64,000 nucleotides of DNA from NCBI GenBank assembly GCA_018824085.1, contig JAHJHI010000001.1:1-64000 (forward strand), in the 5' to 3' direction. Source of the DNA: Gammaproteobacteria bacterium. Lineage in GTDB: Bacteria > Pseudomonadota > Gammaproteobacteria > Burkholderiales > Rhodocyclaceae. Positions 6,325 through 31,544 of the stretch are shown in pieces. Each line of letters opens with the position of its first letter. Position 1 is the stretch's first letter. The translations under genes were made by a program, and so were the position numbers. The notes beneath the pieces were generated by a model. That model worked only from the letters and a program-made list of their open reading frames with translations, made no database searches and was not told the DNA's origin.

Positions 6325-7145
6325 TCCGCCGCTCACTCATCAGTGCCGTTGCCGCCGCAGCCGTCGCATTCGCCAGCCCCGTCTCGTTCGCGGCTGAACG
6401 CTTCATCACCGTGTCGTCGACGACGTCGACCGAGAACTCCGGCCTGTTCAAGCACCTGTTGCCGGTGTTCGAAGCGAAGACCGGCATCCAGGTGCGCGTC
6501 GTTGCGCTCGGCACCGGCCAGGCGCTCGACATGGCGCGCCGCGGCGACGCGGACGTCGTGTTCGTGCACGACAAGAAGGCGGAAGAGAAATTCATCGCCG
6601 AAGGCTATGGCGTGTCGCGTCAGGACGTGATGTACAACGATTTCGTGCTGATCGGCCCGAAGGCCGATCCGGCCAAGGTCGTCGGCGGCAAGGACATCAC
6701 CGCCGCGCTGACGGCGATCCGCGCGGCCCAGGCGCCGTTCGTGTCGCGTGGCGACAAGAGCGGCACGCATGCGGCCGAGCTGCGCCTGTGGAAAGCGGCC
6801 GGCGTGGAAGGCGACGCGCCGACCGGCGACTGGTACCGCAGCACCGGCTCCGGCATGGGCGCCGCGCTGAACACCGCATCGTCGATGAACGCCTACATCA
6901 TGGCCGACCGCGGCACCTGGCTGTCGTTCAAGAACCGCGGCGACCTCACCGTCGTGGTCGAAGGCGACAACCGTCTGTTCAACCAGTACGGCGTCATTCT
7001 TGTCAACCCGGAAAAGCACGCGCATGTGAAGAAGGCCGACGGTCAGGCCTTCATCGACTGGGTGGTTTCGGCTGAAGGCCAGCAGGCGATCGCCGGCTAC
7101 AAGATCGGCGGCGAACAGCTGTTCTTCCCGAACGCGGCGAAGTAA
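6315..7145 (+). CDS. tupA: Tungstate ABC transporter substrate-binding protein
   Basis: Signal peptide then AERFITVSSTTSTENSGLFKHLLPVFEAKTGI...VVALGTGQALDMARRGDADVVFVHDK, TupA-type. Confidence 0.9.
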   Translation: MDMIRRSLISAVAAAAVAFASPVSFAAERFITVSSTTSTENSGLFKHLLPVFEAKTGIQVRVVALGTGQALDMARRGDADVVFVHDKKAEEKFIAEGYGVSRQDVMYNDFVLIGPKADPAKVVGGKDITAALTAIRAAQAPFVSRGDKSGTHAAELRLWKAAGVEGDAPTGDWYRSTGSGMGAALNTASSMNAYIMADRGTWLSFKNRGDLTVVVEGDNRLFNQYGVILVNPEKHAHVKKADGQAFIDWVVSAEGQQAIAGYKIGGEQLFFPNAAK

Positions 7146-7148
7146 GTC

Positions 7149-7934
7149 ATGCGCATCCGGATGGTTGCGATGTGCGCCTGTTTGCTGAGCGGCGGCGCGA
7201 TGGCGGACGGCGCGCAGGTGTACGCCGCCGGCAGCCTGAAGGCCGTGTTTTCGCGGCTGGGCGGGCTGTACGCGGAGCAGGGCGGGGCGGCCCCCCGCTT
7301 CGAATTCGGACCGAGCGGCCTGCTGCGCGAACGCATACAGGGCGGCGCGCCGGCCGACCTGTTCGCGTCCGCCAACATGAAGCACCCGCAGGCGCTGGTC
7401 GACGCCGGCAAGGGCGCGACGGTGACGCAATTCGCACGCAACGAGCTGTGCCTGCTGGTGCGTCCGGGCCTCGACGTGACATCCGGCAACGCGCTGGCGC
7501 AGATGCTGCGCCGTGACGTGAAGCTGGGTGTATCGACGCCGAAGGCGGATCCGTCCGGCGACTATGCGGTGGCGATGTTCCGGCGTGCCGATGCGCTGCG
7601 CCCCGGCATCGGCGAAGCGCTGCGCGCCCGCGCGATGCAGCTGACCGGCGGGCCTGCGTCAGCCAGGCCACCACAGGGCCGCAACAACTATGCATGGGTG
7701 GTCGACAGCGGTCAGGCGGACGTTTTCGTCACCTACTGCACCAATGTGCGGCTCGCGCGGCGCGAGGTGCCGACACTGCAGGAGGTTGCATTGCCCGAGG
7801 CGCTGCGGGTCGGCGCCGACTACGGGCTCGTCGTGCTGTCCGGTGCCGGCAGCGAAGGCGAGGCGTTCGCGCGCTTCCTGCAATCGCCCCCGGCACGCAA
7901 AGTGATGCAGGACGCCGGATTCAGCACGCCGTAG
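7149..7934 (+). CDS. ModA-like oxyanion (molybdate-type) substrate-binding protein
   Basis: AQVYAAGSLKAVFSRLGGLY...FGPSGLLRERIQGGAPADLFASANMKHPQAL; starts 3 nt after the tupA stop. Confidence 0.75.
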   Translation: MRIRMVAMCACLLSGGAMADGAQVYAAGSLKAVFSRLGGLYAEQGGAAPRFEFGPSGLLRERIQGGAPADLFASANMKHPQALVDAGKGATVTQFARNELCLLVRPGLDVTSGNALAQMLRRDVKLGVSTPKADPSGDYAVAMFRRADALRPGIGEALRARAMQLTGGPASARPPQGRNNYAWVVDSGQADVFVTYCTNVRLARREVPTLQEVALPEALRVGADYGLVVLSGAGSEGEAFARFLQSPPARKVMQDAGFSTP

Positions 7935-9628: not shown

Positions 9629-9769
9629 ACCGGCAATTGTCGCCGGGACTGCGGCGGCGACCGCATGCATTGACAGCACGGGCGCGCACCGATGTAATCG
9701 CGGCCCTGACGGCGTCCGCCCGGGCGCACCGCGGCGGCATGCCGCGTCTGATCCGAGGTCCGTGCCCAC

Positions 9770-12700
9770 TTGAATTCCGCGCCTTCCGCCACGCCATTTC
9801 GCCAACGCCTGCGCCAGTGCTGCTGGCTGGCCATCACGGCACTGAGCCTGTGCCTTGCGTCGCCGGCCACCGTCCGGGCACAGCCGGACGGCGTCGCGCA
9901 GGCCGACACCCGGACAGACGCACGGCCGGCGGCGGGCACGGCCCCGAACGTCGACCAGCTGCGCGCGGAAATCGCCGAGCTGCGCGCCCTCGTTGACGGT
10001 CACCTTCCGTCGCATGTCCCGCTGTCCGCATTGTTTGAAATCGACCTGCAGGACGAGACTGCCGTCAGCCGGCGCGTGGCGACGCTCCGGGAACGCCTGG
10101 CCGCGCAGGACAGCGGGGCGCCGGACGAACTGACCGACGAAGCGGCACGATTGCGCATCGAACGCGATCGCGTGCGGCTGCAGTTCCTCAGCCTGCCGAT
10201 GGAAGGCCGCCACGCGCTGGGCGAACAGGACCGCCTGCGCCAGGAAGCGCTGGCGCTGGCCACGGAGAAGCAGGCCTCGGCCGCTGCGCTGGCCGCCAGC
10301 GAACAGGCCCGCGACTCCGCGCTGGCCGCGGCCGGTGTGGCCACGGACGACGCGCAACGTGCCACCGCCACGGAAGAGGCGCGCCTGCTGGCCCACCTCA
10401 GCGAGCTGGCGGCCCTTCGCCAGTCCTGGGCGCGCAGCAACGAAGTGCAGCTGGCGCGTGCCAGGGAACTGCTGCAACGCTACGCTGCCGTCGATGGCCG
10501 GGTCGCCCTGGCGCCTTCGCAAGCGGACGCGCTGTACGCACGGATCCGCAACGACCTGCGCAGCCTGCGCGCGGACGCCGACCTGGCGCTCGACGCGCTC
10601 GCAGCGCCATCCTCGGTCACGCCGATGGTGCCGGCTGCCACGGCGCAGGCGCAGGCACCTGAGCGCATCACCACGCTGCGCCGGCAGATCAGCCGCGAGG
10701 AAAGCGAGCTGCGGGCGCGCGAAACCGAAGAGCGCTATACGGCTGCGGAAGAGATCATGACGGCGCTGCGCATCCTGCAGGCCCGCCGCATCGCGCTGCT
10801 GCCGGCATTGTCGGCACCGTACCGCGCCAGCGTGAGCGGGTTCACCCGCGAAGGGCTGAACCGCGTGCTGAGCGAAATCGAGCACGTGCGGCTGATCGCG
10901 CGCTGGTACCCGGTGCAGCGCCTGCATCAGGCGCACGACTTCGCAGCGATGCTCAACAACGTGTTCACCGCCGGGCGCTTCGGTGTCGAACTGCTGGCGC
11001 TCGTCCTCGTGCTGGGCACGCTGCTCTTCATGCGTCGCGGCATCCGTGACTGGTCGAGCCGGCTGCGCGCCTGGCTGGCGACTCGCGTCCAGCCGCACTC
11101 GCTCATGCTGCGCGTGGACAGGCTCATGCAGATGTTCGTCGCCATCGCGCACGAACTGATCCTGGTATTCACCGTGTACGTGCTGTTCGACCTGCTGCTG
11201 CAGGAGCAGCGCGGCGCGCCGGAGCTTGCCGCATTGCGCCGTCTCGCCTACGCCTACGCCTGTTACCGCCTGGTGTTGGCCTTCATCCATCGCGTGCTGC
11301 TGACGGCGATTTCGCGCTACCGCACGGTGAACCTGGCGCTCGACCGCAAGGTGCTGCGCTCGCTGCGGCTGGTGGCGCGGCTGGTGCTCTTCATCAACGT
11401 CTACCTCATCCTCGCGCAGGCGATGCTGGGGCGCGGGGCGCTGTACGGCATCGCGCAGGACGTGGCATTCGTCGGCGCATTCCTCGTTGGCTGGCGCCTC
11501 ATCGGCAACTGGCGCAGCGAGGTGACGCAGGCCTATCTGAAGTTCTCGCCGGCCGGCCGGCTGGCAGGCCTCGTGCGCGCGAGCCAGGGCCGGACCTACG
11601 GCCTGCTGATCGCCAGCGCGGCCTTCCTGTTTGTCGCGGCACGGGGTATCTGGGTGTGGCTGTGCGACGTCGCGCTCGGGTTCGAACAGACGCGCAAGGC
11701 GCTGGCCTATCTGTTCCGTCGCCAGCTGGAACGGCAATCGAAGAACCAGGCGGCACCGGCGGCGGCAGAGACGTTGCCGCAGGCGCTGCAGGCGGCCTTC
11801 ACCGAAGATCCGACCGCGGAGGACAGCCTGCGCATCGACCACTACCCGGCGCTGGACGAGGTGCTCGCGATGGCATCAGCCCTGCGCGAAGGCGGCCACG
11901 GCGCGCTGGTCGCCCTGGCCGGCGAACGCGGCGCGGGCAAGACCTCGTGGCTGATGGCGCTGCACCGGCGTGCCGGCACCGAACTGCCCGGCACCCTGCA
12001 TGCGTTCGACACCCGGCTGTCGGGCGCCGACGCCGTCTGCCTGCAGCTGTGCACGATACTGGGGTGCGAACCGACCACCTCGCCGCAACGGCTCATCGAC
12101 GTCGTGCTGCAGCAGGCGCCGCGCATGGTGCTGCTCGATCTCGGACAGAATCTCATGCTGCGCACCGTCGGCGGACTGTCCGGCTACGCGCTGTTCATAC
12201 ACGTGGCGCAGGCAACCGTCAGCCGCGTGCTGTGGGTCGTCGCCTTTGCATACTGGCCGTTCGAGTATCTGCTGCGCACCCACCCGGATCGCGATGTCTA
12301 TGACCGGATCATCCGGTGCGAGCCCTGGTCCGAGCAGCAGATCAGCGCGCTGATCGACGCCCGGCTGGAGGCGGCGGGTTTCAGCGCCGATTACGACCAT
12401 CTGCTGCTCAATACGCCGTCGCTCGTGATGGCGCGCAGCCACACGCCGGCGCCGGGCCAGGAGGCCGAGCGCATCGCCGATCGCTATCACCGGCTGATCT
12501 GGGACTACGCGGATGGCAATCCGCGCATTGCGCTGCATTTCTTCCGGCTCTCGCTGTCCGTGGCGGGCGAGGGGCGTGTCAGCGTGCGTCTGTTTCCGAT
12601 TCCGGCCGGCAATGCGCTGGAAGGCTTCGAACTGCGTACGCGTTTCGTGCTGTCATGTGTCGTCCAGCACGAGAATCTCACCGACGAGGAAGCCGCTGAG

Positions 12701-12859
12701 TCCTTGCGCTTTCCGCTCGCCGAGTGCACCCGTGCGCTGCAGTTGTTGCAGCAGCAGGGGTTTCTGAGCCGGGAGGCCGACCTGCGCTATCGCGTCACCA
12801 GCCACTGGAACCGTGCGGTGCTGCGCTTTCTGCAACGCAAGAGGCTGCTGGCCGTATGA
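9770..12859 (+). CDS. Large membrane protein: signal peptide, periplasmic coiled-coil region, multiple TM helices and C-terminal P-loop ATPase domain
   Basis: N-term WLAITALSLCLASPATVRAQ; Ala/Glu/Arg-rich heptad-like region; TM stretches (LLALVLVLGTLLFM, LILVFTVYVLFDLLL, LLIASAAFLFVAARGIWVWL); Walker A LVALAGERGAGKTSW; Walker B-like RMVLLDLG; TTG start. Confidence 0.7.
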   Translation: MNSAPSATPFRQRLRQCCWLAITALSLCLASPATVRAQPDGVAQADTRTDARPAAGTAPNVDQLRAEIAELRALVDGHLPSHVPLSALFEIDLQDETAVSRRVATLRERLAAQDSGAPDELTDEAARLRIERDRVRLQFLSLPMEGRHALGEQDRLRQEALALATEKQASAAALAASEQARDSALAAAGVATDDAQRATATEEARLLAHLSELAALRQSWARSNEVQLARARELLQRYAAVDGRVALAPSQADALYARIRNDLRSLRADADLALDALAAPSSVTPMVPAATAQAQAPERITTLRRQISREESELRARETEERYTAAEEIMTALRILQARRIALLPALSAPYRASVSGFTREGLNRVLSEIEHVRLIARWYPVQRLHQAHDFAAMLNNVFTAGRFGVELLALVLVLGTLLFMRRGIRDWSSRLRAWLATRVQPHSLMLRVDRLMQMFVAIAHELILVFTVYVLFDLLLQEQRGAPELAALRRLAYAYACYRLVLAFIHRVLLTAISRYRTVNLALDRKVLRSLRLVARLVLFINVYLILAQAMLGRGALYGIAQDVAFVGAFLVGWRLIGNWRSEVTQAYLKFSPAGRLAGLVRASQGRTYGLLIASAAFLFVAARGIWVWLCDVALGFEQTRKALAYLFRRQLERQSKNQAAPAAAETLPQALQAAFTEDPTAEDSLRIDHYPALDEVLAMASALREGGHGALVALAGERGAGKTSWLMALHRRAGTELPGTLHAFDTRLSGADAVCLQLCTILGCEPTTSPQRLIDVVLQQAPRMVLLDLGQNLMLRTVGGLSGYALFIHVAQATVSRVLWVVAFAYWPFEYLLRTHPDRDVYDRIIRCEPWSEQQISALIDARLEAAGFSADYDHLLLNTPSLVMARSHTPAPGQEAERIADRYHRLIWDYADGNPRIALHFFRLSLSVAGEGRVSVRLFPIPAGNALEGFELRTRFVLSCVVQHENLTDEEAAESLRFPLAECTRALQLLQQQGFLSREADLRYRVTSHWNRAVLRFLQRKRLLAV

Positions 12860-12892
12860 GGCAGGGACGATTCATCGAGAGGAGGGCGCGCC

Positions 12893-13729
12893 GTGAGTGA
12901 TGCTGTCGAGGTGCTGAAATTCCTCCGTCCGGGCGGCCTGCCCACGGCACTGGTGATTTTCGTCGTGGGCTGGTTTCTGGTGCAGGTGCTGCGCAAGGGC
13001 GGCGAACAGCTGGGCGACCGCATGGTGGACCGGCGACTCGCGATCAACCAGGTCGTCACCTTCCTGCGCTTCGCGATCTACATCGCCGCGTTCGCGGCGG
13101 CCGTGCCGGTGGTTTTCGCGCTGACCGACGAAATGATGATTGCACTCGGCGGCACCGTTGCGGTCACCGTCGGGTTCGCGCTCAAGGACCTTGCGGCGTC
13201 CATCATCGCCGGCATCACGCTGCTGGTCGACAAGCCGTTCCAGGTCGGTGACCGGGTGAGCTTTGACGGCCATTACGGCGAAGTCGTGGCGATCGGCCTG
13301 CGTTCGGTCCGGCTGGTCACCCTCGACGACAATCTCATCACCATCCCGAACAACAAGTTCCTGAACGACAGTGTGTCCAGCGGCAATGCGGGCGAACTGA
13401 ACATGCTCATTCAGCAGGATTTCTTCATCGGCATCGATCAGGATCTCGAGACCGCAAAACGCATCGTCGAAGAGGCGCTGACCTCATGCCCGTATGCCTA
13501 TCTTGCCAAGCCGTGGACGGTGCTGGTCAATGAGGTCATACAGGATCAGTATTTCGCGCTGCGCCTGCGCGCCAAGGTCTACGTCATGGATATTCGATAC
13601 GAAAAGATGCTCGAATCCGATGTCACCCAGCGGATTGTCAGCGGCTTCGCGTCCGCCGGCATCCAGCGCCCCGCCATCCTCTATCGCAATGCGCCGATGG
13701 CCGCCGGCGAAGCAGGGGAGGCGTGCTGA
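12893..13729 (+). CDS. MscS-family mechanosensitive channel (GTG start)
   Basis: GGTVAVTVGFALKDLAASIIAGITLLVDKPFQVGDRVSFDGHYGEVVAIGLRSVRLVTLDDNLITIPNNKF. Confidence 0.9.
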   Translation: MSDAVEVLKFLRPGGLPTALVIFVVGWFLVQVLRKGGEQLGDRMVDRRLAINQVVTFLRFAIYIAAFAAAVPVVFALTDEMMIALGGTVAVTVGFALKDLAASIIAGITLLVDKPFQVGDRVSFDGHYGEVVAIGLRSVRLVTLDDNLITIPNNKFLNDSVSSGNAGELNMLIQQDFFIGIDQDLETAKRIVEEALTSCPYAYLAKPWTVLVNEVIQDQYFALRLRAKVYVMDIRYEKMLESDVTQRIVSGFASAGIQRPAILYRNAPMAAGEAGEAC

Positions 13730-14760
13730 TGCCGGTTCCCGCTTCCGCACCGCGTTCGCGCCTGTTCATGCAGCACCACAGCACGCCGGAACGGGTGCTG
13801 CTGGTGCGCTGCGCGATGCTTTTCGTGCTGGTGTCCACGGTGCTGGCGATATTCTGGTTCGACCGCGACGGGCTGCGCGACCACACCGACGGTCACATCA
13901 GTTTCAGCGACGTGGCCTACTTCACCGCGGTCACGATTTCCACGGTCGGTTATGGCGACATCGTGCCGGTGTCGGACCGGGCGCGCCTGGTCGATGCCGT
14001 GCTCGTGACGCCACTTCGGCTGGTGATCTGGCTGATATTCCTGGGCACGGCCTATGAGCTCGTGCTGCAACACTGGCTGGAGAACTGGCGCATGAGAAGA
14101 CTGCACGACAAACTGGATCAGCACATCATCATTTGCGGCTATGGCCACGGCGGCCAGAGTGCCGCCCGCGAGGCGGTTGCACGCGGCATGGACCCGCGCC
14201 AGATCATCGTCATCGACCGCAACGGCGGTCTGCTGTCGCAGGCGTGCGAAGACGGCTTCGTGGGGCTGCACGGCGACGCGACGCGCGAACAGGATCTCAG
14301 CGCCGCGTGCGCGACGCGGGCGAAGTCCATCATCATCTGCCTCGGTCATGACGACGCCACCGTGCTGTGCGTGCTGACGCTGCGACAACTCAACTCGAAG
14401 GCACGCGTCATCTGTTCGATCAGCGAGGAAGAGAACATCAAGCTGGTGCGCCAGGCCGGCGCCGACGCCATCATCGCGCCATCCATCGTCGGCGGCTACC
14501 TGATGGCCGATTCGATCGACTCCCAGTTCGTTGCCGATTACATCAGCGACCTCATGTGCTCGGAAGGGCGCGTGCGCCTGTGGGAACGCGTGGCGCGCGC
14601 CGACGAAGTCGGACGCCCGATGCGCGACCTGAGCCCGGAAATGGTGGTCCGCCTGCATCGGGGCGACGAGAAGATCGGTTTCTGGGAAGGCGACCGTTCC
14701 ATCATCCGCGCCGGCGACATCCTGCTGACGATCCAGCCCAACCCGCCCGGCGACGGCTGA
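13729..14760 (+). CDS. Ion-channel/TrkA-N (RCK) domain potassium channel
   Basis: Selectivity filter TISTVGYGDIVP; RCK segment HIIICGYGHGGQSAAREAVARG; ATG overlaps the MscS stop (TGATG). Confidence 0.9.
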   Translation: MPVPASAPRSRLFMQHHSTPERVLLVRCAMLFVLVSTVLAIFWFDRDGLRDHTDGHISFSDVAYFTAVTISTVGYGDIVPVSDRARLVDAVLVTPLRLVIWLIFLGTAYELVLQHWLENWRMRRLHDKLDQHIIICGYGHGGQSAAREAVARGMDPRQIIVIDRNGGLLSQACEDGFVGLHGDATREQDLSAACATRAKSIIICLGHDDATVLCVLTLRQLNSKARVICSISEEENIKLVRQAGADAIIAPSIVGGYLMADSIDSQFVADYISDLMCSEGRVRLWERVARADEVGRPMRDLSPEMVVRLHRGDEKIGFWEGDRSIIRAGDILLTIQPNPPGDG

Positions 14761-14782
14761 TCCCCGGTTGCGCGGCCGGCAG

Positions 14783-15409
14783 TCAGACACCGGCCGCCGG
14801 CAGCACGGCGTTGTGCGGGCGCGTGACGAGCGCGCCGCGCCAACCGGCGGCCTGCGCGCCAACCGTGTCCCACAGGTGACAGGCGACCAGACACAGCTGT
14901 GAGGTGTCGACGCGCAGCGCATTTGCCACGACAGCGTAGGTCTCGGGTGCCGGCTTGAATCGGCGTACCGTTTCAACGCTGAACGCGCACTCGAAGAATC
15001 CGTCGATCCCGGCACGCTCCAGCGGCGTCGGCGACGACGCCTGCGCCGAATTCGTCAGCGTCGCGAGCCTGAAGCCGGCGTCGCGCAGACGCACGAGAGC
15101 CGGTACGACGTCGGGGTGCGCCGGCATCGCACCCATCCGCATCCTCATGTCGTCGACGTCCGCGTCGGAGACGGTGGCACCGTGGATGTCCGCCACCATG
15201 CGCAGCGTTCCCGCCGCCAGTTCGCCGAACGGCGTGTACAGCCCTGACAGGGTCAGCGTCTGCGAATAGAGGATCAGTTGCGCAAACCATTCCCGCAGAA
15301 CGAGCCGGTCACCGAAGACGCGATCGAACAAGGGCTCCAGCGTCGTGAGGTCGAGCAGCGTTTCGTTCACATCGAAGACGATGATCGAAACGGGCGTGTC
15401 ATGGAACAT
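14783..15409 (-). CDS. (S)-2-haloacid dehalogenase-type HAD hydrolase
   Basis: IIVFDVNETLLDL...LATLTNSAQASSPTPLERAGIDGFFECAFSVETVRRFKPAPETY. Confidence 0.85.
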   Translation of the reverse strand: MFHDTPVSIIVFDVNETLLDLTTLEPLFDRVFGDRLVLREWFAQLILYSQTLTLSGLYTPFGELAAGTLRMVADIHGATVSDADVDDMRMRMGAMPAHPDVVPALVRLRDAGFRLATLTNSAQASSPTPLERAGIDGFFECAFSVETVRRFKPAPETYAVVANALRVDTSQLCLVACHLWDTVGAQAAGWRGALVTRPHNAVLPAAGV

Positions 15410-15461
15410 GGGTCATCCTTTCGAACAACATCGTTAGCTCGAATGTCCTGCCTCTTTGGTA

Positions 15462-15487
15462 GTTCTGAAAACAGTAATTTTCAGAAC
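15462..15487. promoter_or_regulatory. Perfect inverted repeat, candidate operator upstream of HAD dehalogenase
   Basis: GTTCTGAAAA-CAGTAA-TTTTCAGAAC (10-bp arms, 6-nt spacer). Confidence 0.5.
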
Positions 15488-21715: not shown

Positions 21716-22987
21716 GTGCCGTTGCGCTCAGTCATGCCGCCGTCCGCCGAAAACCCGACAACCGCCCGCCCCGACCTGCCGCTGCGTCCGCTCGACGAGA
21801 TCGCCGTACCCGAAGCGCTCGACGGGCACGACGGCGTGAACCGCGCAGACCGGGTACGCCTGCAGATCGGCGCCGGCAACGACGTGGACGCGATCCGCTG
21901 CTTTCTCGCCGAATATGACCGCTCGCCCGGCACGCACCGCATTTACCAGCGCGAGTGCGAACGCCTGCTGCTGTGGTCGCTCATCGAATGCGGCAAGCCG
22001 CTGTCCAGCCTGAACCGCCAGGATTTCGAAGGCTATTTGCACTTTCTGGCCGACCCGCAGCCCGCCGCGCTGTGGTGCGGTCCCAAGGTGGCGCGCGTGA
22101 AGGCGCAATGGCGCCCCTTCGTCGGCCCGCTGTCGGACGCCGCCGTGCTGACGGCGATCGCCGCGATCAATTCCCTGATGGCCTATCTGGTGGATGCCGG
22201 CTACCTCGCCGGCAATCCGCTCGGCCTCATCCGCCAGCGCCGGCGCAAGCTCGCCAGTGCCAACGCCGGGCCGGCGCAGGTCATCGCGCAGACCGAGGAA
22301 ATGCTGAAGGTCGAGCGTTTCCTCGACGCGGAAATGTGGCAGGCGGTCACGCGGGCAATCGAGGCGATGCCGCGCGACAGCGCGGTCGCCTGCGACGAAT
22401 ACGAGCGCGCGCGCTTCGTTGCCGCGCTGCTTTACATGCTGGCGCCGCGCGCCGGCGAACTCGAGTCGCACCGCATGAACAGCTTTCGTGAAGAGCGCGG
22501 CCGCTGGTGGTGGCATGTCGTCGGCAAGGGCGGCAAGCAGGCCCGCGTGCCGGTGGCCGACGACATGGTTCACGCGCTGGTTCGCTATCGCAAGCATCTC
22601 GGCCTGTCGGCCATGCCCCGGCGCAATGACCTGACGCCGCTGCTGGTGTCGCTCAAGGACCGCAGCCCGATCACCGCGCGCCGGCTCAACCAGATTCTGA
22701 AGAAGATCTTCTGCGCCGCGGCCGGACTGCTGCCGGAGGAATCCGAGCACAAGCGCGAAAAGCTGCGTGCCGCGTCGGCCCACTGGGGACGTCATACCGG
22801 CATCACGGCCAAGCTCGACAGCGGCATGAACGAACGCTATGTCCAGAAGGACGCCCGCCACACCGACGCCCGCACGACACAGCGCTACATCCACGAAGAA
22901 GAGGAGCGCTGGCACGACGAGGCACAGAAGCAGCAATTGCCCTGGGCCACGCCGAACGACACGGACGGCAAACGCGGGGCGGACTGA
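21716..22987 (+). CDS. Tyrosine recombinase/phage-type integrase
   Basis: Catalytic-type motifs LAPRAGELESHRM, GKGGKQARVPV, SAHWGRHTGIT, KDARHTDARTTQRYIH. Confidence 0.88.
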   Translation: MPLRSVMPPSAENPTTARPDLPLRPLDEIAVPEALDGHDGVNRADRVRLQIGAGNDVDAIRCFLAEYDRSPGTHRIYQRECERLLLWSLIECGKPLSSLNRQDFEGYLHFLADPQPAALWCGPKVARVKAQWRPFVGPLSDAAVLTAIAAINSLMAYLVDAGYLAGNPLGLIRQRRRKLASANAGPAQVIAQTEEMLKVERFLDAEMWQAVTRAIEAMPRDSAVACDEYERARFVAALLYMLAPRAGELESHRMNSFREERGRWWWHVVGKGGKQARVPVADDMVHALVRYRKHLGLSAMPRRNDLTPLLVSLKDRSPITARRLNQILKKIFCAAAGLLPEESEHKREKLRAASAHWGRHTGITAKLDSGMNERYVQKDARHTDARTTQRYIHEEEERWHDEAQKQQLPWATPNDTDGKRGAD

Positions 22988-23139
22988 CCGAATGTTTTTT
23001 CCGGTGCCGAAGTAAGCAAATGGCACGCCCCCGGGTCTGGTGTCCGGAGAGCGCAATGCGAAGGCCCGAGGGCCCGCAGATGCTGTTCTCGCCAGACCGT
23101 ATTCCGGGCGTCTTGCCCCTCACTCAGGAGAGTACTCAC

Positions 23140-23430
23140 ATGTCCAAGTTCAATTTCGGCGCTTCCGTCGCCGCCGCTGCCGCCGCTCTCGCCCTGTCGG
23201 GCTCCGTGTTTGCCGGTGACATGCCCGCCGGCAGCAAGGGCGCCGCCGTCGGCGCCAGCGACAAGGTGCATTGCTACGGCCTGCACGCCTGCAAGGGCAA
23301 CAGCGACTGCGCAACCGCCGAGCACGGCTGCAAGGGCCAGAACGCCTGCAAGGGCCACGGCTTCAAGGCCACCTCGGCCAAGGAATGCCTGACCCAGGGC
23401 GGCACCATCGGCGACATCGCCGCGAAGTAA
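23140..23430 (+). CDS. bufA2: Bufferin-type (BufA2-like) Cys-rich metallophore RiPP precursor
   Basis: Signal peptide [10 protein letters not shown] then [33 protein letters not shown]...KECLTQGG (6 Cys); followed by MNIO and DUF2063 genes. Confidence 0.85.
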
Positions 23431-23485
23431 TCGTGTTGTGCCGCGCGGCGCCCGATGCGCCGCGCGGATCCTGATGAGGCCATGC

Positions 23486-24337
23486 ATGCAAGCACTGACC
23501 CGCCCCTCCCCCGGTTTCGGGCTCGGCCTGCGCCCGCCGCACTACGCCGCGCTGCTTGAAACCCGCGCGCCGCTGGAGTGGCTTGAAATCATTTCCGAAA
23601 ACTTCATGGTCGACGGCGGCAAGCCGATGGCCATGCTCGATCGCCTGCGCGCCGACTATCCGATGGCGATGCACGGCGTCGCACTGTCGATCGGCGCCGA
23701 CGAAGACATCGATCGCGACTACATCGCGCGACTGAAGACGCTGGCGGCACGCGTCGATCCGCTGTGGATTTCCGACCATCTGTGCTGGACCGGCATCCAG
23801 GGCCGCAACGCCCACGACCTGCTGCCGCTGCCCTATACGGAAGAGGCGGCACGCCTGCTGGTGCGCAAGATCGGTCAGGTGCAACACGAGCTCGGACGCC
23901 GCCTGGTGCTGGAGAACGTGTCCAGCTACCTCACCTATGGCGTGTCGAGCAGCACGGAATGGGACTTCATCCGCGAAGTCGCCGACGAGGCTGACTGCCT
24001 GCTGCTGCTCGACGTGAACAACGTCTATGTCAGCAGCGTCAATCACGGTTTCGACCCGATCGACTATCTGCAGGCCCTGCCGGCCCGGCGCGTGCAGCAG
24101 ATCCATCTGGCGGGCCATTCCACGCACGAAGACCACCTTGTCGACACGCATGACCATCCGGTATGCGAGGACGTGTGGGCGCTCTACGACGTCGCCTGCG
24201 GCATGTTCGGCCCGGTGGCGACGATGATCGAACGTGACGACAACATTCCCGAACTGCCCGAACTGCTGAACGAACTGGCGCGTGCGCGCACCATTGCCGC
24301 GCTCGCTGCCGGCGCCGGAACGCGGGCCGTCGCATGA
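23486..24337 (+). CDS. bufB: Multinuclear non-heme iron oxygenase (MNIO/DUF692), BufB-like
   Basis: [32 protein letters not shown]...[12 protein letters not shown]...ENVSSYLTY...[13 protein letters not shown]...HLAGH. Confidence 0.9.
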
Positions 24338-25104
24338 GCGCGCTCAGGCCGATGCAGCAGCTGTTCATGGACTATCTGCATGATCGTCCGAACCATTTTC
24401 TCGACACGCTGGCCGACACCGGCGGCCTCGCCCGCGACGCACGCGCCAACATCTATTTCAACGCCTACCGCGTGCGCCTGCTCGACACGCTGAAGGACAG
24501 CTTCGACAAGACGTGGAGCTGGCTCGGCGACGAGCGCTTCGAGGATGCCGCGCTGCGCTACATCGCGCAGCACCCGCCGACGCATTTCAGCCTGCGCCCG
24601 TATGGCGACCGCTTCGCCGACTGGCTGCAGTCCGCCATGCCGGACGACGCCGAAGTCGCCGAACTGGCCCGGCTGGACTGGGCACTGCGCAACGCCTTCG
24701 ACGGTGCCGACGCTTCAGCGCTGACCGGTGACACGCTGGCCGGCTTCGGCGACGACGACTGGGCGCAGGTCGTGTTCAGGCCGCATCCGACAACGCAGTT
24801 GCTGCCGCTGACGCACAACACGATCGCGTTGTGGCACGCGATGGATCGCGAAGACACGCCGCCGCCGGCGCATCGCCTCGCGCGCCCGGCAACGCTGCTG
24901 GTATGGCGCAAGGGGCTGCAGCCGCATTTCAGGTCGATCGACGATGCGGAAGCACACATGCTGCACGCGATGCTGCGCGGCGAGCGCTTTGCCGACGCCT
25001 GCGAAAGCCTCGCCGGAACGCTGCCCGGCGACAGCGACCTGCAGTCGCTCGTCGGCGCCTTCATCGCGCGCTGGCTGGAAGAGGAACTGCTGCAGGCGCC
25101 CTGA
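24334..25104 (+). CDS. bufC: DUF2063 putative DNA-binding/RiPP recognition partner, BufC-like
   Basis: [47 protein letters not shown]; 4-nt overlap with MNIO gene. Confidence 0.88.
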
Positions 25105-26387: not shown

Positions 26388-29300
26388 TCAGGTGGTTGCT
26401 TCTGACCGAATCTCATCTGGCCCATCAGGTCCATCTTGGAGGACGTCATCTTTTGGAAACGCCACCACCCTCCTCGACTCAACGTGAATACTGGTAACCG
26501 GAGCGTCCACACTGCTAGGCTGAATGCCATGTGCGGCAAGCGTGTCGACGAGGTCTCGAACAACGTCATCCTTGTGAAGCACAAAGGTTGATGCAAAGCA
26601 GCGCCAGAATCGCCACCCGGCTCTTTCCAATATACGCTGCCGGCGCATATCGCTATCCCACTGGTCAGGGCCGTGATACCGATCACCATCGCACTCGATT
26701 GCTAGGCGGCTGTCAGCATCCCCTTCTACAACCATGTCGATTCGGTAGGAGCCGACCGGCACTTGTGGAATTACTCGATAACCACGAGCAACCAAGATGT
26801 CGAAGACTTCCCGTTCAAAGGGCGATTCGCAGCGCTCACGAAGATTCTCCAGTTGCTCCTCGTCCTGGAAGAACGGCGCCTGGAAATGCTGAATGAGATT
26901 TGAGCGCAATTGGTCCGCCTGGCTCAACTCTTCGGCTTGAATACTGCGAACAAGGTACATGCGGTCTCGAGCTCTGGAAGCAGCGACGTTAAAGCGTTGT
27001 GCCACCATATCTTGCGTCTGTGCGTGCGCCTGACCAAGAGAAGCAACCATGGACAAGAACATGATGTCCCGCTCCTTACCTTGGAAGGTGCGTGCGTCAC
27101 CGCAGGTAATTTTGTATTGCGTGACGACCTGCTCGCCAAGCTCATCATTGAGCATCTGCATGACTTTGAGCGCCTGCTCGTTACCCAATAGGGAGACGAC
27201 ACCAATAGTCCGCCCATCAAATGCGCGGTTCTCAACGATGGCCCGGATTTCATCAACAATGAAGCGAGCTTCGGGCAGGTTGATGTCTTTGTTGCGGTAT
27301 CCGTCGGTGACGTAAACATCCACGAGTGGCGGGTCTAGGCGCTCTGAGGCCTTTGGCATCCGTAATGGCTTGAGTTCATGGTTATAGAACTCACGTTTTG
27401 AATACTCGATGATCGGCGCCACGCAGCGGAAATGCTCCCGCAACATCACAGCGCTCTTGGCGAATACCACCTTGAACAAATCATAGATGGACCGCTCTGG
27501 GGTCATCTGAGGCCGGTAGATGTCCACTTGGTTGGCAAGGAAGCGAGTCATCAGATTCCTGATTTTCTCTTCCTCAAGACCAACCCCTTCCGGCGAGACC
27601 TGCTTGTCGTCACCAACAATCAAAACCTTCTTTGCACGCAGAATGGCGGGCAATGCGGTCAGGTCAGATTGGGAGGCCTCATCGATAATAACCAGGTCAA
27701 AGCACCCGAAGCTGGCCGGCAGCGACTCGCAAATACGGTAGTGCGGCATAATCCAGCAAGGAATCGCACCATTAGCCCGCTCAGCAGCGAATCGCGCGTC
27801 CTGGCGGTAACGCCCGGCGCGGATACCGGTGCCTTTCCCAATCTTTTTGATGGCCGACCGGTAGGCCTCCAGAGCCGCCCTAACGTCATGTGTAGCGTTT
27901 TCAGCGAGCTTGAGCCACGTCCGCTTATTGACTGCATCCTGGTAGAGCTTGGCTAGGTCATGCTCTAGGTCCATCCGCAGCTTTGACAGTCGCTTCAATT
28001 CGTGACGGCCGTCAATCTTGTCGACAAAGCTAACTAACCTGCACAGGCGCCATACCTCACGCCAATTGTCCGGCAGCAAAGCATCATGAGCCCCCGGGTG
28101 TGCCTCAGTGCGAAGCTTCAGCGCCCATTTCTGGGCACCGGAGGACTCAATCAACTGGGTAACGTCAGAAATCGTCTTAAGGCTTCCGGCCAAAGAGTGA
28201 ACCCGACGGAGTTCTTCCATCAATTTCGACCACTCAGCCTGAATATCACTGTCAGTGCATTCCTGACTGCCCAACCGCTTGTTAAGAAATTCTCTCAGCT
28301 GCTCAGTAATTGCACCCTCGCAACCAAAAATCGCTTTCATGAAGGACTCCTTGACCACCCAGGTTTCGGCAAGACGATGACGTGTCAGGTGATGTTGGAA
28401 AATACCCTCAACCTCACCAAGCAACTCCTTGGTGTACGGTGTTTGTATGGCTTTCGGCCAGGTTGGCAGCAACGGCTGCACGGCCGTAACCACCTCCAAC
28501 TCATCGGAGATACTGGCTGCAACCTTGTTGTAGAGGTCTATTGCCATGCCAGCAGCAACCAGGCGCTCTGGCTTAGGTTCGAATCTTGGAAGCGAGATTT
28601 CATCCGCCAAAGTGTTCCAACGAACAAGTAGTGCCTTGCTCAACTGCTGGAACTTTATGAACTGCAGCACGTGTTCCCACTCCGACGTTGATTCGGGCTT
28701 TGCACTGACTACTACAACCGCGTCCAAGACCCGCTTCTGCTCGGTTTTTCCGAACATTCCAGCCAGCCCGAATGGCTTTTTTCCTTGTGACAAATTGGTG
28801 ACTGCCTCGACCAACTCACTGTTGGCTTCGAAGCCATCAGACAAAGTCACCGGCTTAGCCAAGAACTGCTTCCGCGTATCCAGCGCGGCAAGGATTTCAT
28901 CCTTAAGTGTCAGGAACAAATCCAGGATTTCGTTCTTTGAACTGCGACGTAGGTATTGCTGCAACCCAGCAGTCCAGGCCTGCTGTGCATTGTCGATTTC
29001 CCGGAGCAACAGCCTGAGATTCGACACCTTAGAGGTGGCCGTCATCGCAGCCTGAACAGTCTCCGGGGTAGTGCTGACAAGGCTTGGAACCACGCCGTCA
29101 GACTCTTGAGCCTTCAACTCACTCAGGCGAGACAGGTCTTGATGAACCTGCAACAGCTTTCCCGTTTCAGGAAAGTCACCAATCTGGGGAACCCGTTTGC
29201 AGAGGTACGCCAAGTCGGGCCCGACAGCGAGTCGTGCTTCGCGCAACGTGGAAATCTCAGCATTCCCAAACTGCGGCTTGTGGCTGGATTCGATGGTCAG

Positions 29301-31022
29301 GACATCCGGGAACCACGAAACCTCATTGCGGTTTACTGCAACATCTTCAGCAACCTCGACAGGCGTCAGGGACTCATCGTCAATCTGTACTTTGTCCAGG
29401 TTCAAACTCGCCCAGTTTGCGATTTCCTTATCCGTCTTGGCGATTCGCCCATGCAGCGCATCAATTTGCACGTCGATTTGCTCGATTTCACGACGATAGA
29501 CTGAGCGGTCGATTCGGGTGACCTCCGCAGCAATCTTATTGATGGCGAACTCGAATTGCTTCATGCCCTCAGCTTCACTGGTCAGCAGACTGATAGCTAG
29601 TGGCCGAATGGACTCAGGTAGCTTCTCCTGCAACACAGTGAGTGCCGGGTCCTTCATCGAGGTAACCAGCACTCGCTTTCCCAAAGCAAGGTAGTGGCAG
29701 ATTACGTTCGCGATGGTGTGCGTCTTACCTGTTCCTGGTGGGCCCTGAACTACCACGCCATCATGCGCTTCCAGCATCTGAATAATCTGGACTTGCTCAT
29801 CGTTGTAGGCCATTGGGAAGTACAGTTCCGAAACGTGGCCAGTCCCGGACCCAGTGCCACCACCACTGCCACTAACCACTGATAGCCCACGAAATGGAGG
29901 GAGGGTCACTTCTTCGTTTTCAGACGAAGGCTCCGTTACAAGGGACAAGACGGCGTCTGGCAAGGGGCCAAGGTTTTCAGCGGCAAGCTTGGCCTCAAAA
30001 CGCTCCAAGTCTTGAACCAGCAGGTTGCTAGTCCGCGGACGTGCCAGCAGCACCCAGGTATCCGTGACCACCAGGTTCTCGGTGGACTTGGGAAGACTTC
30101 GGTCGTCAGCGGTAGTTTGAGGTGGCCAGTAGGTTCCGGATGCGTCCAAGAACGTGGCAGCCGACTGCAGAAGCGGCTCAAAGGTGCTTGGCTCAAAGGG
30201 ATTAAGCACACCGCCAGTCGACTCGAAGAACTTCTTGCTTGTCTCGACCAGCTTGGCTACCCCTGGATTATCCATCGACGCATAGATGTCGACCTCTAAT
30301 CGCGGCTCTGAGGAGCGAGGCCGGATTTCCAGCGCCATAGTCGTTTCGTTGAGCGAAATCTCGACGAGCTGAGTTAGCAGTGGATAAGCGAGAGCACCCG
30401 AGGGCAAGGACCAGAGCGCCACACCGACGCCCCAAACCAACTCGAGCTGGGAGTCGACGAGGTTGCCCTGCATTTTCTGGGAGAGCATGAACAGCTCGGA
30501 GTAGAGCGAAATGCTTTTCCGAACCTCCTTTTCGCGCTCGGACCACGGGCGCCATAAAGCCTCAACATAAGACTTGAGCTGCCCCTTGAGCAACTCCCTG
30601 TCCGGGAAGTCTTCCAAGGAAATAACGAGGGACGCTACCTTCTCCTTGGCCACTTCGCCTTCTGCGACAGGCACATCTGGACTAACAACCAACGCCCCGA
30701 TGTCGATGAGGGATTGGCGTACCGCGTGAGTCTTGAGGCTGGGCTCTTTATTCGGTGCCCTAGGAAGGTCAATCCAGAGGTTGAGAAGCTTGCTATCTGG
30801 TACGGGGGGACGAGTCTCGTGCAGCCGGTCCAAGCGAAGCCAAACCTCATCAAACTCCGTTTCCTGGCAATTGAATGACACACTAGGCAAGCCCTTGATA
30901 CGCTCTTCCGTGCGAGTGAAATCCTTGTGCTGCGAGAAATTCTGCAGCGGCGTCTTTTTCAACAGGGCAGTTTGTTTCGCAAACTCGATGAGTGCGGCTA
31001 GGCGTTCGTTTTTAATGTCCAT
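26388..31022 (-). CDS. 1544-aa Upf1-like superfamily I helicase with C-terminal PD-(D/E)XK-like nuclease domain
   Basis: Walker A VVVQGPPGTGKTHTIANV; Walker B CFDLVIIDEASQSDL; motif III IVGDDKQVSP; late motifs GDARTFQGKERDIMFLSM and RFNVAASRARDRMYLV; C-term SYRIDMVVEGDADSRLAIECDGDRYHG...ILERAGWRFWRC. Confidence 0.85.
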   Translation of the reverse strand: MDIKNERLAALIEFAKQTALLKKTPLQNFSQHKDFTRTEERIKGLPSVSFNCQETEFDEVWLRLDRLHETRPPVPDSKLLNLWIDLPRAPNKEPSLKTHAVRQSLIDIGALVVSPDVPVAEGEVAKEKVASLVISLEDFPDRELLKGQLKSYVEALWRPWSEREKEVRKSISLYSELFMLSQKMQGNLVDSQLELVWGVGVALWSLPSGALAYPLLTQLVEISLNETTMALEIRPRSSEPRLEVDIYASMDNPGVAKLVETSKKFFESTGGVLNPFEPSTFEPLLQSAATFLDASGTYWPPQTTADDRSLPKSTENLVVTDTWVLLARPRTSNLLVQDLERFEAKLAAENLGPLPDAVLSLVTEPSSENEEVTLPPFRGLSVVSGSGGGTGSGTGHVSELYFPMAYNDEQVQIIQMLEAHDGVVVQGPPGTGKTHTIANVICHYLALGKRVLVTSMKDPALTVLQEKLPESIRPLAISLLTSEAEGMKQFEFAINKIAAEVTRIDRSVYRREIEQIDVQIDALHGRIAKTDKEIANWASLNLDKVQIDDESLTPVEVAEDVAVNRNEVSWFPDVLTIESSHKPQFGNAEISTLREARLAVGPDLAYLCKRVPQIGDFPETGKLLQVHQDLSRLSELKAQESDGVVPSLVSTTPETVQAAMTATSKVSNLRLLLREIDNAQQAWTAGLQQYLRRSSKNEILDLFLTLKDEILAALDTRKQFLAKPVTLSDGFEANSELVEAVTNLSQGKKPFGLAGMFGKTEQKRVLDAVVVVSAKPESTSEWEHVLQFIKFQQLSKALLVRWNTLADEISLPRFEPKPERLVAAGMAIDLYNKVAASISDELEVVTAVQPLLPTWPKAIQTPYTKELLGEVEGIFQHHLTRHRLAETWVVKESFMKAIFGCEGAITEQLREFLNKRLGSQECTDSDIQAEWSKLMEELRRVHSLAGSLKTISDVTQLIESSGAQKWALKLRTEAHPGAHDALLPDNWREVWRLCRLVSFVDKIDGRHELKRLSKLRMDLEHDLAKLYQDAVNKRTWLKLAENATHDVRAALEAYRSAIKKIGKGTGIRAGRYRQDARFAAERANGAIPCWIMPHYRICESLPASFGCFDLVIIDEASQSDLTALPAILRAKKVLIVGDDKQVSPEGVGLEEEKIRNLMTRFLANQVDIYRPQMTPERSIYDLFKVVFAKSAVMLREHFRCVAPIIEYSKREFYNHELKPLRMPKASERLDPPLVDVYVTDGYRNKDINLPEARFIVDEIRAIVENRAFDGRTIGVVSLLGNEQALKVMQMLNDELGEQVVTQYKITCGDARTFQGKERDIMFLSMVASLGQAHAQTQDMVAQRFNVAASRARDRMYLVRSIQAEELSQADQLRSNLIQHFQAPFFQDEEQLENLRERCESPFEREVFDILVARGYRVIPQVPVGSYRIDMVVEGDADSRLAIECDGDRYHGPDQWDSDMRRQRILERAGWRFWRCFASTFVLHKDDVVRDLVDTLAAHGIQPSSVDAPVTSIHVESRRVVAFPKDDVLQDGPDGPDEIRSEATT

Positions 31023-31034
31023 TAGATAGCTTTC

Positions 31035-31544
31035 TTATTTGGCCATGAGCACGATAATTACCAGCACAACCAGGCCGATGAGAATCCATTTAATGCCGGC
31101 ACTTCCGGACTCAGTCGTAGTTTTGGCCTGGAATATAGTGCGCATCACACCGTATTTGAATTGGGCTTCGTACGCTGTTTTACAGGCAGAGCACGAAAGA
31201 TGCTGCACAACACCTTCAAGAGTAGAGACGAAATTGGGTGTTTTGCAGTTAGCGCAATCAACAACCACACGGTCGGGTGCAACCGGAGGAGTCTGAATTA
31301 CTGGCGCTTCAGGCACACACTCTTTCGGAAGTGACTTAACTGGAGGCGCGGGGGGCAGAACCACTCCTTCAGATAGTCTCCGAACAAGCTCATCAACCTC
31401 AGCCTTCAATGCACGTGCTTTCGGGCGGTCGCGATGCCCTAACTCGTATTGAATAACTTTGAGTGCTTTTAAGTCACTGCGTGCCGTTGAAATCAACTCT
31501 TGAATCTGTTCGATTCCATGCTTAAAATAAGGGCGATAGCGCAT
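31035..31544 (-). CDS. Small zinc-ribbon protein with C-terminal TM helix
   Basis: VVVDCANCKTPNFVSTLEGVVQHLSCSACKTAYEAQ (CxxC...CxxC), C-term KWILIGLVVLVIIVLMAK; 12 nt upstream of the helicase start, same strand. Confidence 0.7.
   Translation of the reverse strand: MRYRPYFKHGIEQIQELISTARSDLKALKVIQYELGHRDRPKARALKAEVDELVRRLSEGVVLPPAPPVKSLPKECVPEAPVIQTPPVAPDRVVVDCANCKTPNFVSTLEGVVQHLSCSACKTAYEAQFKYGVMRTIFQAKTTTESGSAGIKWILIGLVVLVIIVLMAK

Follow-up and report, generated by a model that had tools for sequence, protein, structure and literature searches.

Why should the gene of an MscS-type channel stand directly behind that of a large membrane protein with a P-loop domain? This question is raised by a stretch of 64,000 nucleotides (nt) from a Gammaproteobacteria bacterium of the Rhodocyclaceae (contig JAHJHI010000001.1, positions 1 to 64,000), referred to here as the window, in which three genes follow one another on the forward strand. 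Gene 1 (9770-12859; TTG start, 1029 amino acids (aa)) encodes the P-loop protein, termed the partner in the following, gene 2 (12893-13729; GTG start, 278 aa) the MscS-family channel, and gene 3 (13723-14760) a K+ channel with two transmembrane (TM) helices, a TVGYGD filter and an RCK domain. The open reading frames (ORFs) confirmed this arrangement, which had been described in a first-pass annotation of the DNA: genes 1 and 2 are separated by 33 nt, and the last base of the gene 2 stop codon (13727-13729) is also the A of an ATG of gene 3 in the string TGATG (13727-13731). This ATG at 13729 is in frame, has GGGGAGG ahead of it and is a likelier start of gene 3 than position 13723. The annotation regarded the three genes as one functional module. 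A membrane-bound P-loop partner encoded next to a separate MscS protein withstood comparison with other genomes, but the triad did not, as the K+ channel occurs only in a single clade. Gene neighbourhoods show a pair, an AAA/winged-helix partner followed by MscS, as the conserved unit.

Conservation of the partner-MscS pair

MscS-type channels are usually regarded as autonomous tension sensors, and E. coli MscS has been studied as a stand-alone channel. The gene 2 product was identified as an MscS protein by PF00924 (E 2e-19) and by matches to solved MscS structures (E ~1e-13), and it contains the beta domain and the TM3 pore helix. It resembles E. coli MscS in being a pore protein of about 280 aa with TM3, beta and C-terminal domains. 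In a phylogenetic tree, 22 MscS sequences from loci with a partner gene form a single clade (99/99), which is separate from four other MscS proteins of the same genome, from other neighbours and from E. coli MscK. Unlike E. coli MscS, the members of this clade that were examined are always accompanied by a partner gene.

A profile search with the partner in 399 proteobacterial genomes yielded 14 strong homologues including the one in the window. The MscS gene is located directly downstream in 14 out of 14 of these and in two more distant ones. A reverse search with a hidden Markov model of the MscS protein (cut-off E<=1e-35) gave 23 genomes, and the top 14 were identical to the 14 genomes harboring partner homologues. 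The remaining nine MscS genes are preceded directly, on the same strand, by a gene for a soluble AAA/winged-helix homologue of 370-415 aa. These soluble proteins align with the AAA/winged-helix domain of the larger partners over 287 columns (hhalign P 1.5e-15; reversed control 0.14). A partner is therefore found directly upstream and on the same strand in all of the 23 best MscS matches, and no exceptions to the pairing occurred among MscS matches within the cut-offs used. The pair was also present in 44 of 44 additional loci from two genera, as well as on three of three bacterial plasmids and one haloarchaeal plasmid, where the genes overlap or almost abut. According to the first-pass annotation, a scarcity of channel genes beside homologues of gene 1 would have spoken against its proposal; instead, MscS adjacency is kept in every homologue examined, which excludes chance.

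Within the genus of the source organism, close-homologue searches did not detect the gene 1 protein in 12 other genomes, nor in 199 others of the order. Named relatives occur in a Pseudomonadota metagenome-assembled genome (54%) and in Solimonas (46%), and plasmids of Caulobacter and of two Novosphingobium carry relatives with about 28% over the AAA region. In some relatives the membrane part is short or absent. On chromosomes the pair is stable, being present in 66 of 118 and 58 of 82 genomes of two genera. One of these is Halomonas-like (81% match to a Halomonas record); the other, g131, with large chromosomal contigs of 44-46% GC, is compatible with Vibrio. Two plasmid loci deserve mention. 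On the Salinirubellus plasmid (L145, 3018-4819) the partner and MscS genes overlap by 4 nt, an occurrence across domains of life, and on the Caulobacter plasmid (L009, 9113-10956) a second, very divergent MscS gene follows the pair. The first-pass annotation could not match the locus to a named system, and this still holds: the gene 1 protein reached the cut-off of no family in Pfam, NCBIfam or PADLOC, and no description of the pair was found in the open-licence literature searched (MscS in connection with STAND, AAA, winged-helix or antiphage). The pair is thus widespread and apparently undescribed.

Architecture and nucleotide binding of the partner

The features of gene 1 that had been read from its translation were confirmed by sequence, hydropathy and an AlphaFold2 model. 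A signal peptide (aa 1-37, 9770-9880; ...PATVRA/QPDG) precedes an alpha-helical, coiled-coil periplasmic region (aa ~60-395, 9947-10954). The AlphaFold2 model of the N-terminal half is helical throughout, with a predicted local distance difference test (pLDDT) score mostly of 70-85 to about aa 350. A TM region of about six hydrophobic segments follows (aa 403-630, 10976-11659), as delimited by Kyte-Doolittle and Wimley-White profiles over homologues. The C-terminal part harbors the P-loop domain. Its Walker A motif GERGAGKT (aa 718-725, 11921-11944) includes Lys724, and its Walker B strand MVLLD (12125-12139) ends in the invariant Asp790; both motifs were assigned from alignments of homologues, among them, for Walker A, one of 20 sequences. 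A conserved GNP motif (aa 916-918, 12515-12523) is similar to the GxP motif found in STAND NTPases, and the chain ends in a winged helix (aa 955-1029, 12632-12856), which in Foldseek is closest to MarR/ArsR folds, also matches the winged helices of ORC proteins and gives a weak match to the MarR family of Pfam.

With regard to the class of the ATPase, two partner models of modest quality gave Foldseek matches of the C-terminus to RuvB (E 6e-7) and to ORC/Cdc6 AAA+ proteins with winged helices. Among the classes suggested beforehand, an AAA domain of the RuvB/ORC-Cdc6 type is therefore supported, whereas a KAP P-loop NTPase was ruled out, as no KAP family of Pfam was matched. AAA_22 is matched weakly by the gene 1 protein, and relatives reach the Pfam cut-off. 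The curated Pfam cut-offs for STAND proteins were not reached by the gene 1 group despite the STAND-like GxP motif and the winged helix behind the NTPase core, and membership is not claimed. The partners share the P-loop, the Walker B aspartate, the GxP-like motif and the C-terminal winged helix with ATPases of the AAA_22, STAND and ORC/Cdc6 types. They differ from them by their fusion to periplasmic and TM parts, by their pairing with MscS and by the loss of the catalytic glutamate, and they are often pseudo-enzymes.

The catalytic acid is absent after Asp790 in the clade of the window, where the motif reads RMVLLDLG (DLG). Among the homologues, DE occurs only in L055 and DD in L010, L011, L056 and L057. 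The Walker lysine is retained in the clade of the window, in the alphaproteobacterial plasmid forms and in L053-L055. It is replaced by threonine, serine or alanine in every g131 locus examined and in L046; in the additional two-genus set it is missing in 21 of 21 g131 loci, which keep GERGxG. It is also lost in L056 and L057, and the archaeal form has an arginine instead. In Halomonas-type partners the entire P-loop is unrecognisable. The MscS neighbour is nevertheless retained in all clades lacking the lysine or the P-loop. This points to a structural or regulatory role of the partner, coupled in some clades to nucleotide sensing, and argues against an obligatory ATP-driven motor. The distribution of these motifs thus makes a gating or sensor subunit more likely than a motor. 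The first-pass description of the system as ATP-controlled is consistent with the intact P-loop lysine in the window, but it is weakened by the missing Walker B glutamate and by sister clades that have lost the lysine or the P-loop. The pair provides an example of nucleotide binding being lost more than once with the partnership retained.

A proposed two-component channel and its alternatives

We infer that the two proteins form a physical complex, that the partner has a role in gating and that the function of the pair is osmotic. Genes 1 and 2 would probably encode a two-component mechanosensitive channel, which in the window is accompanied by a co-regulated RCK K+ channel and serves osmotic and K+ homeostasis. 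The MscS protein would constitute a heptameric, tension-gated pore and the gene 1 protein its dedicated regulatory subunit, with the helical periplasmic part and the TM bundle flanking the pore. That some homologues are soluble and lack a signal peptide suggests that the AAA part of the partner is cytosolic. The AAA-type/winged-helix domain could there touch the cytosolic vestibule of MscS and shift gating or inactivation. As the P-loop is intact and the catalytic glutamate is missing, the domain encoded in the window is predicted to be no motor but a slow switch that binds ATP or ADP; elsewhere in the family the AAA domain would have a structural role without nucleotide binding. The RCK K+ channel would add a co-transcribed path of efflux, and the probable task of the system is a controlled release of K+ and solutes upon osmotic or ionic change. 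If true, a dedicated AAA-fold partner would represent a new control of a mechanosensitive pore from the cell interior, and many proteins annotated merely as AAA family ATPase, ATP-binding protein or hypothetical protein would acquire a functional meaning. More tentatively, the pair may define a class of two-component MscS channels whose mechanosensitive pore is gated from the cytosol by a subunit of the AAA/STAND fold; this class would extend over bacteria and one archaeon or more. Such a subunit might have begun as a nucleotide-dependent switch and repeatedly have become a pseudo-enzyme, and in the clade of the window the opening of the mechanosensitive channel might be set by tension together with the ATP/ADP state and be coupled to the RCK K+ channel.

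Several points weigh against a two-component channel of this kind. The even count of hydrophobic segments in the gene 1 protein is at odds with a cytosolic C-terminus: six TM segments after a cleaved signal peptide would render the AAA domain extracellular, and at least one segment is misassigned. The structure models are of modest quality (pLDDT 54 and 57), with a TM region of low confidence. Furthermore, as the winged helix could bind DNA, the co-conservation could stem from expression control rather than from a complex.

MscK, a heptamer whose MscS-like pore is tuned by its periplasmic ring together with peripheral helices (PMC9653487), is the nearest working model for the pair. Like E. coli MscK (KefA) and MscM, the pair combines a helical periplasmic domain, a peripheral TM bundle and an MscS-type pore as a unit (PMC9653487). 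However, MscK is a single chain without an AAA domain, whereas the pair distributes sensor and pore over two genes and its partner carries the AAA/winged-helix domain. The gene 1 chain has no MscS pore of its own; it ends in the AAA/winged-helix part, and the pore is encoded by the next gene. The first-pass annotation had compared gene 1 to the periplasmic and TM part of a split MscK. In such an origin, which is compatible with a two-component channel, the N-terminal sensor of MscK would have been kept and joined to an ATPase, while its pore became a separate gene downstream. The common arrangement, in which a TM bundle comes after a helical periplasmic part, fits this (PMC9653487), as does hhalign, in which the N-terminal half of gene 1 matched MscK 480-722 co-linearly over 231 columns (P 1e-5, reversed control 4e-4; a weak match with a probability of 82%) and the TM part alone scored P 9e-4 compared to 0.016 for the best of 30 shuffles (also weak, probability 23%). 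These values are better than those of the controls and make descent from the periplasmic/TM part of MscK suggestive, but the matches are weak and full-length MscK homology was not established. Neither MscS_porin (PF12795) nor MscS_TM (PF12794) was matched in the gene 1 protein or in the host genome, relatives with a short or missing membrane part exist, and the MscS proteins of the pair fall into a clade outside the MscK group. Thus a split MscK is a possible but doubtful origin. Another part of the host genome has an open frame of 1247 aa that includes an MscS domain, which was rejected as a full MscK; the frame is overlong and the actual protein is a short MscS.

Other functions of the partner were also considered. 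As an ATP-driven motor, the partner would open MscS so that a solute such as an amino acid is actively exported, comparable to MscCG. MscS homologues can serve in export (PMC6110860), and the Walker A motif is intact in the window and in gamma- and alphaproteobacterial members. The Walker B glutamate, however, is missing in nearly all members, and the Walker lysine is lost in g131, in L046, in the distant pair and in the soluble forms; this loss of motifs disfavours a catalytic motor, which we consider unlikely. Also unlikely is a membrane-tethered DNA-binding protein whose sole connection with MscS is the control of its transcription. The MarR/ArsR-like winged helix would suit it, but winged helices are standard in AAA proteins of the ORC/Cdc6/RuvB and STAND types, and stoichiometric co-translation is suggested by the gene order, the partner preceding MscS, and by gaps that are tight or overlapping. 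The first-pass annotation had also mentioned a possible role in defence. In abortive infection, a STAND-like NTPase would sense the invader and open the MscS and K+ channels, and the cell would be depolarised. The layout of P-loop, GxP-like motif and winged helix resembles that of STAND NTPases, membrane-depolarising effectors such as Cam1 are known in defence (PMC10808066), the segment lies at a variable site and a candidate helicase-nuclease defence gene is about 12 kb away. But C-terminal sensor repeats are absent, the NTPase motifs are degenerate in several clades, and no PADLOC family was found for the three proteins of the window or for most other partners tested, the only matches being weak ones to the P-loop region, in the plasmid homologue L010. 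The pair is moreover stable on the chromosomes of the two genera mentioned above and its neighbours are housekeeping genes, so that a defence role is improbable. A phage or viral origin was rejected, as viral contigs and phage records were searched and gave no match.

The K+ channel and the genomic setting

The gene 3 product was identified as an MthK-like channel by PF07885 and PF02254 (TrkA_N), the TVGYGD filter and an alignment to MthK over 314 residues (E 2e-31). It shares the two TM helices, the filter and the RCK domain with MthK-type channels, but differs from them by its location in an MscS operon and by close relatives found only in the triad clade. The K+ channel joins the pair in only four loci (the window, L007, L008 and L043), which form one clade (99/99), and the triad was therefore rejected as a conserved unit. 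Profile scores of about 700 bits were confined to the triad genomes of the sample, with about 330 bits elsewhere, and most simply suggest that the channel was recruited once, in the clade of the window. In the metagenome-assembled relative L007, a GGDEF (diguanylate cyclase) gene lies between the MscS and K+ channel genes (7050-7909), and the K+ channel frame is broken, possibly by an assembly error. Two more MscS genes in divergent orientation follow the triad both in L007 (9059-10606) and in L043 (9114-10984); in the tree they are each other's closest relatives.

Together with a HAD gene, the triad occupies a segment (9636-15460) that is missing in relatives. Since the flanking dioxygenase and mnh genes are close together in genomes of the same genus, or are separated by other genes, the segment occupies a variable site in the source genome, whereas two other genera commonly carry the pair on their chromosomes. 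In the near-empty site of L139, about 112 nt separate a conserved palindrome from the end of the dioxygenase match. A perfect 10-bp inverted repeat, GTTCTGAAAA-CAGTAA-TTTTCAGAAC, is located beside the mnh operon (15462-15487) and is kept across the genus although the DNA around it varies. As no T-run follows, it may serve as an operator and not as a terminator. Further downstream, a small gene, an MbnB/TglH/ChrH enzyme and a DUF2063 protein (23020-25104) form a modification cluster of the type that produces ribosomally synthesised and post-translationally modified peptides, with a tyrosine integrase nearby at 21716. An island of lower GC (26388-31544) contains a gene for a 1544-aa protein with superfamily 1 helicase and MTES_1575 nuclease parts, which matches the PADLOC candidate PDC-S37 and Hhe, and an adjoining ORF of 169 aa.

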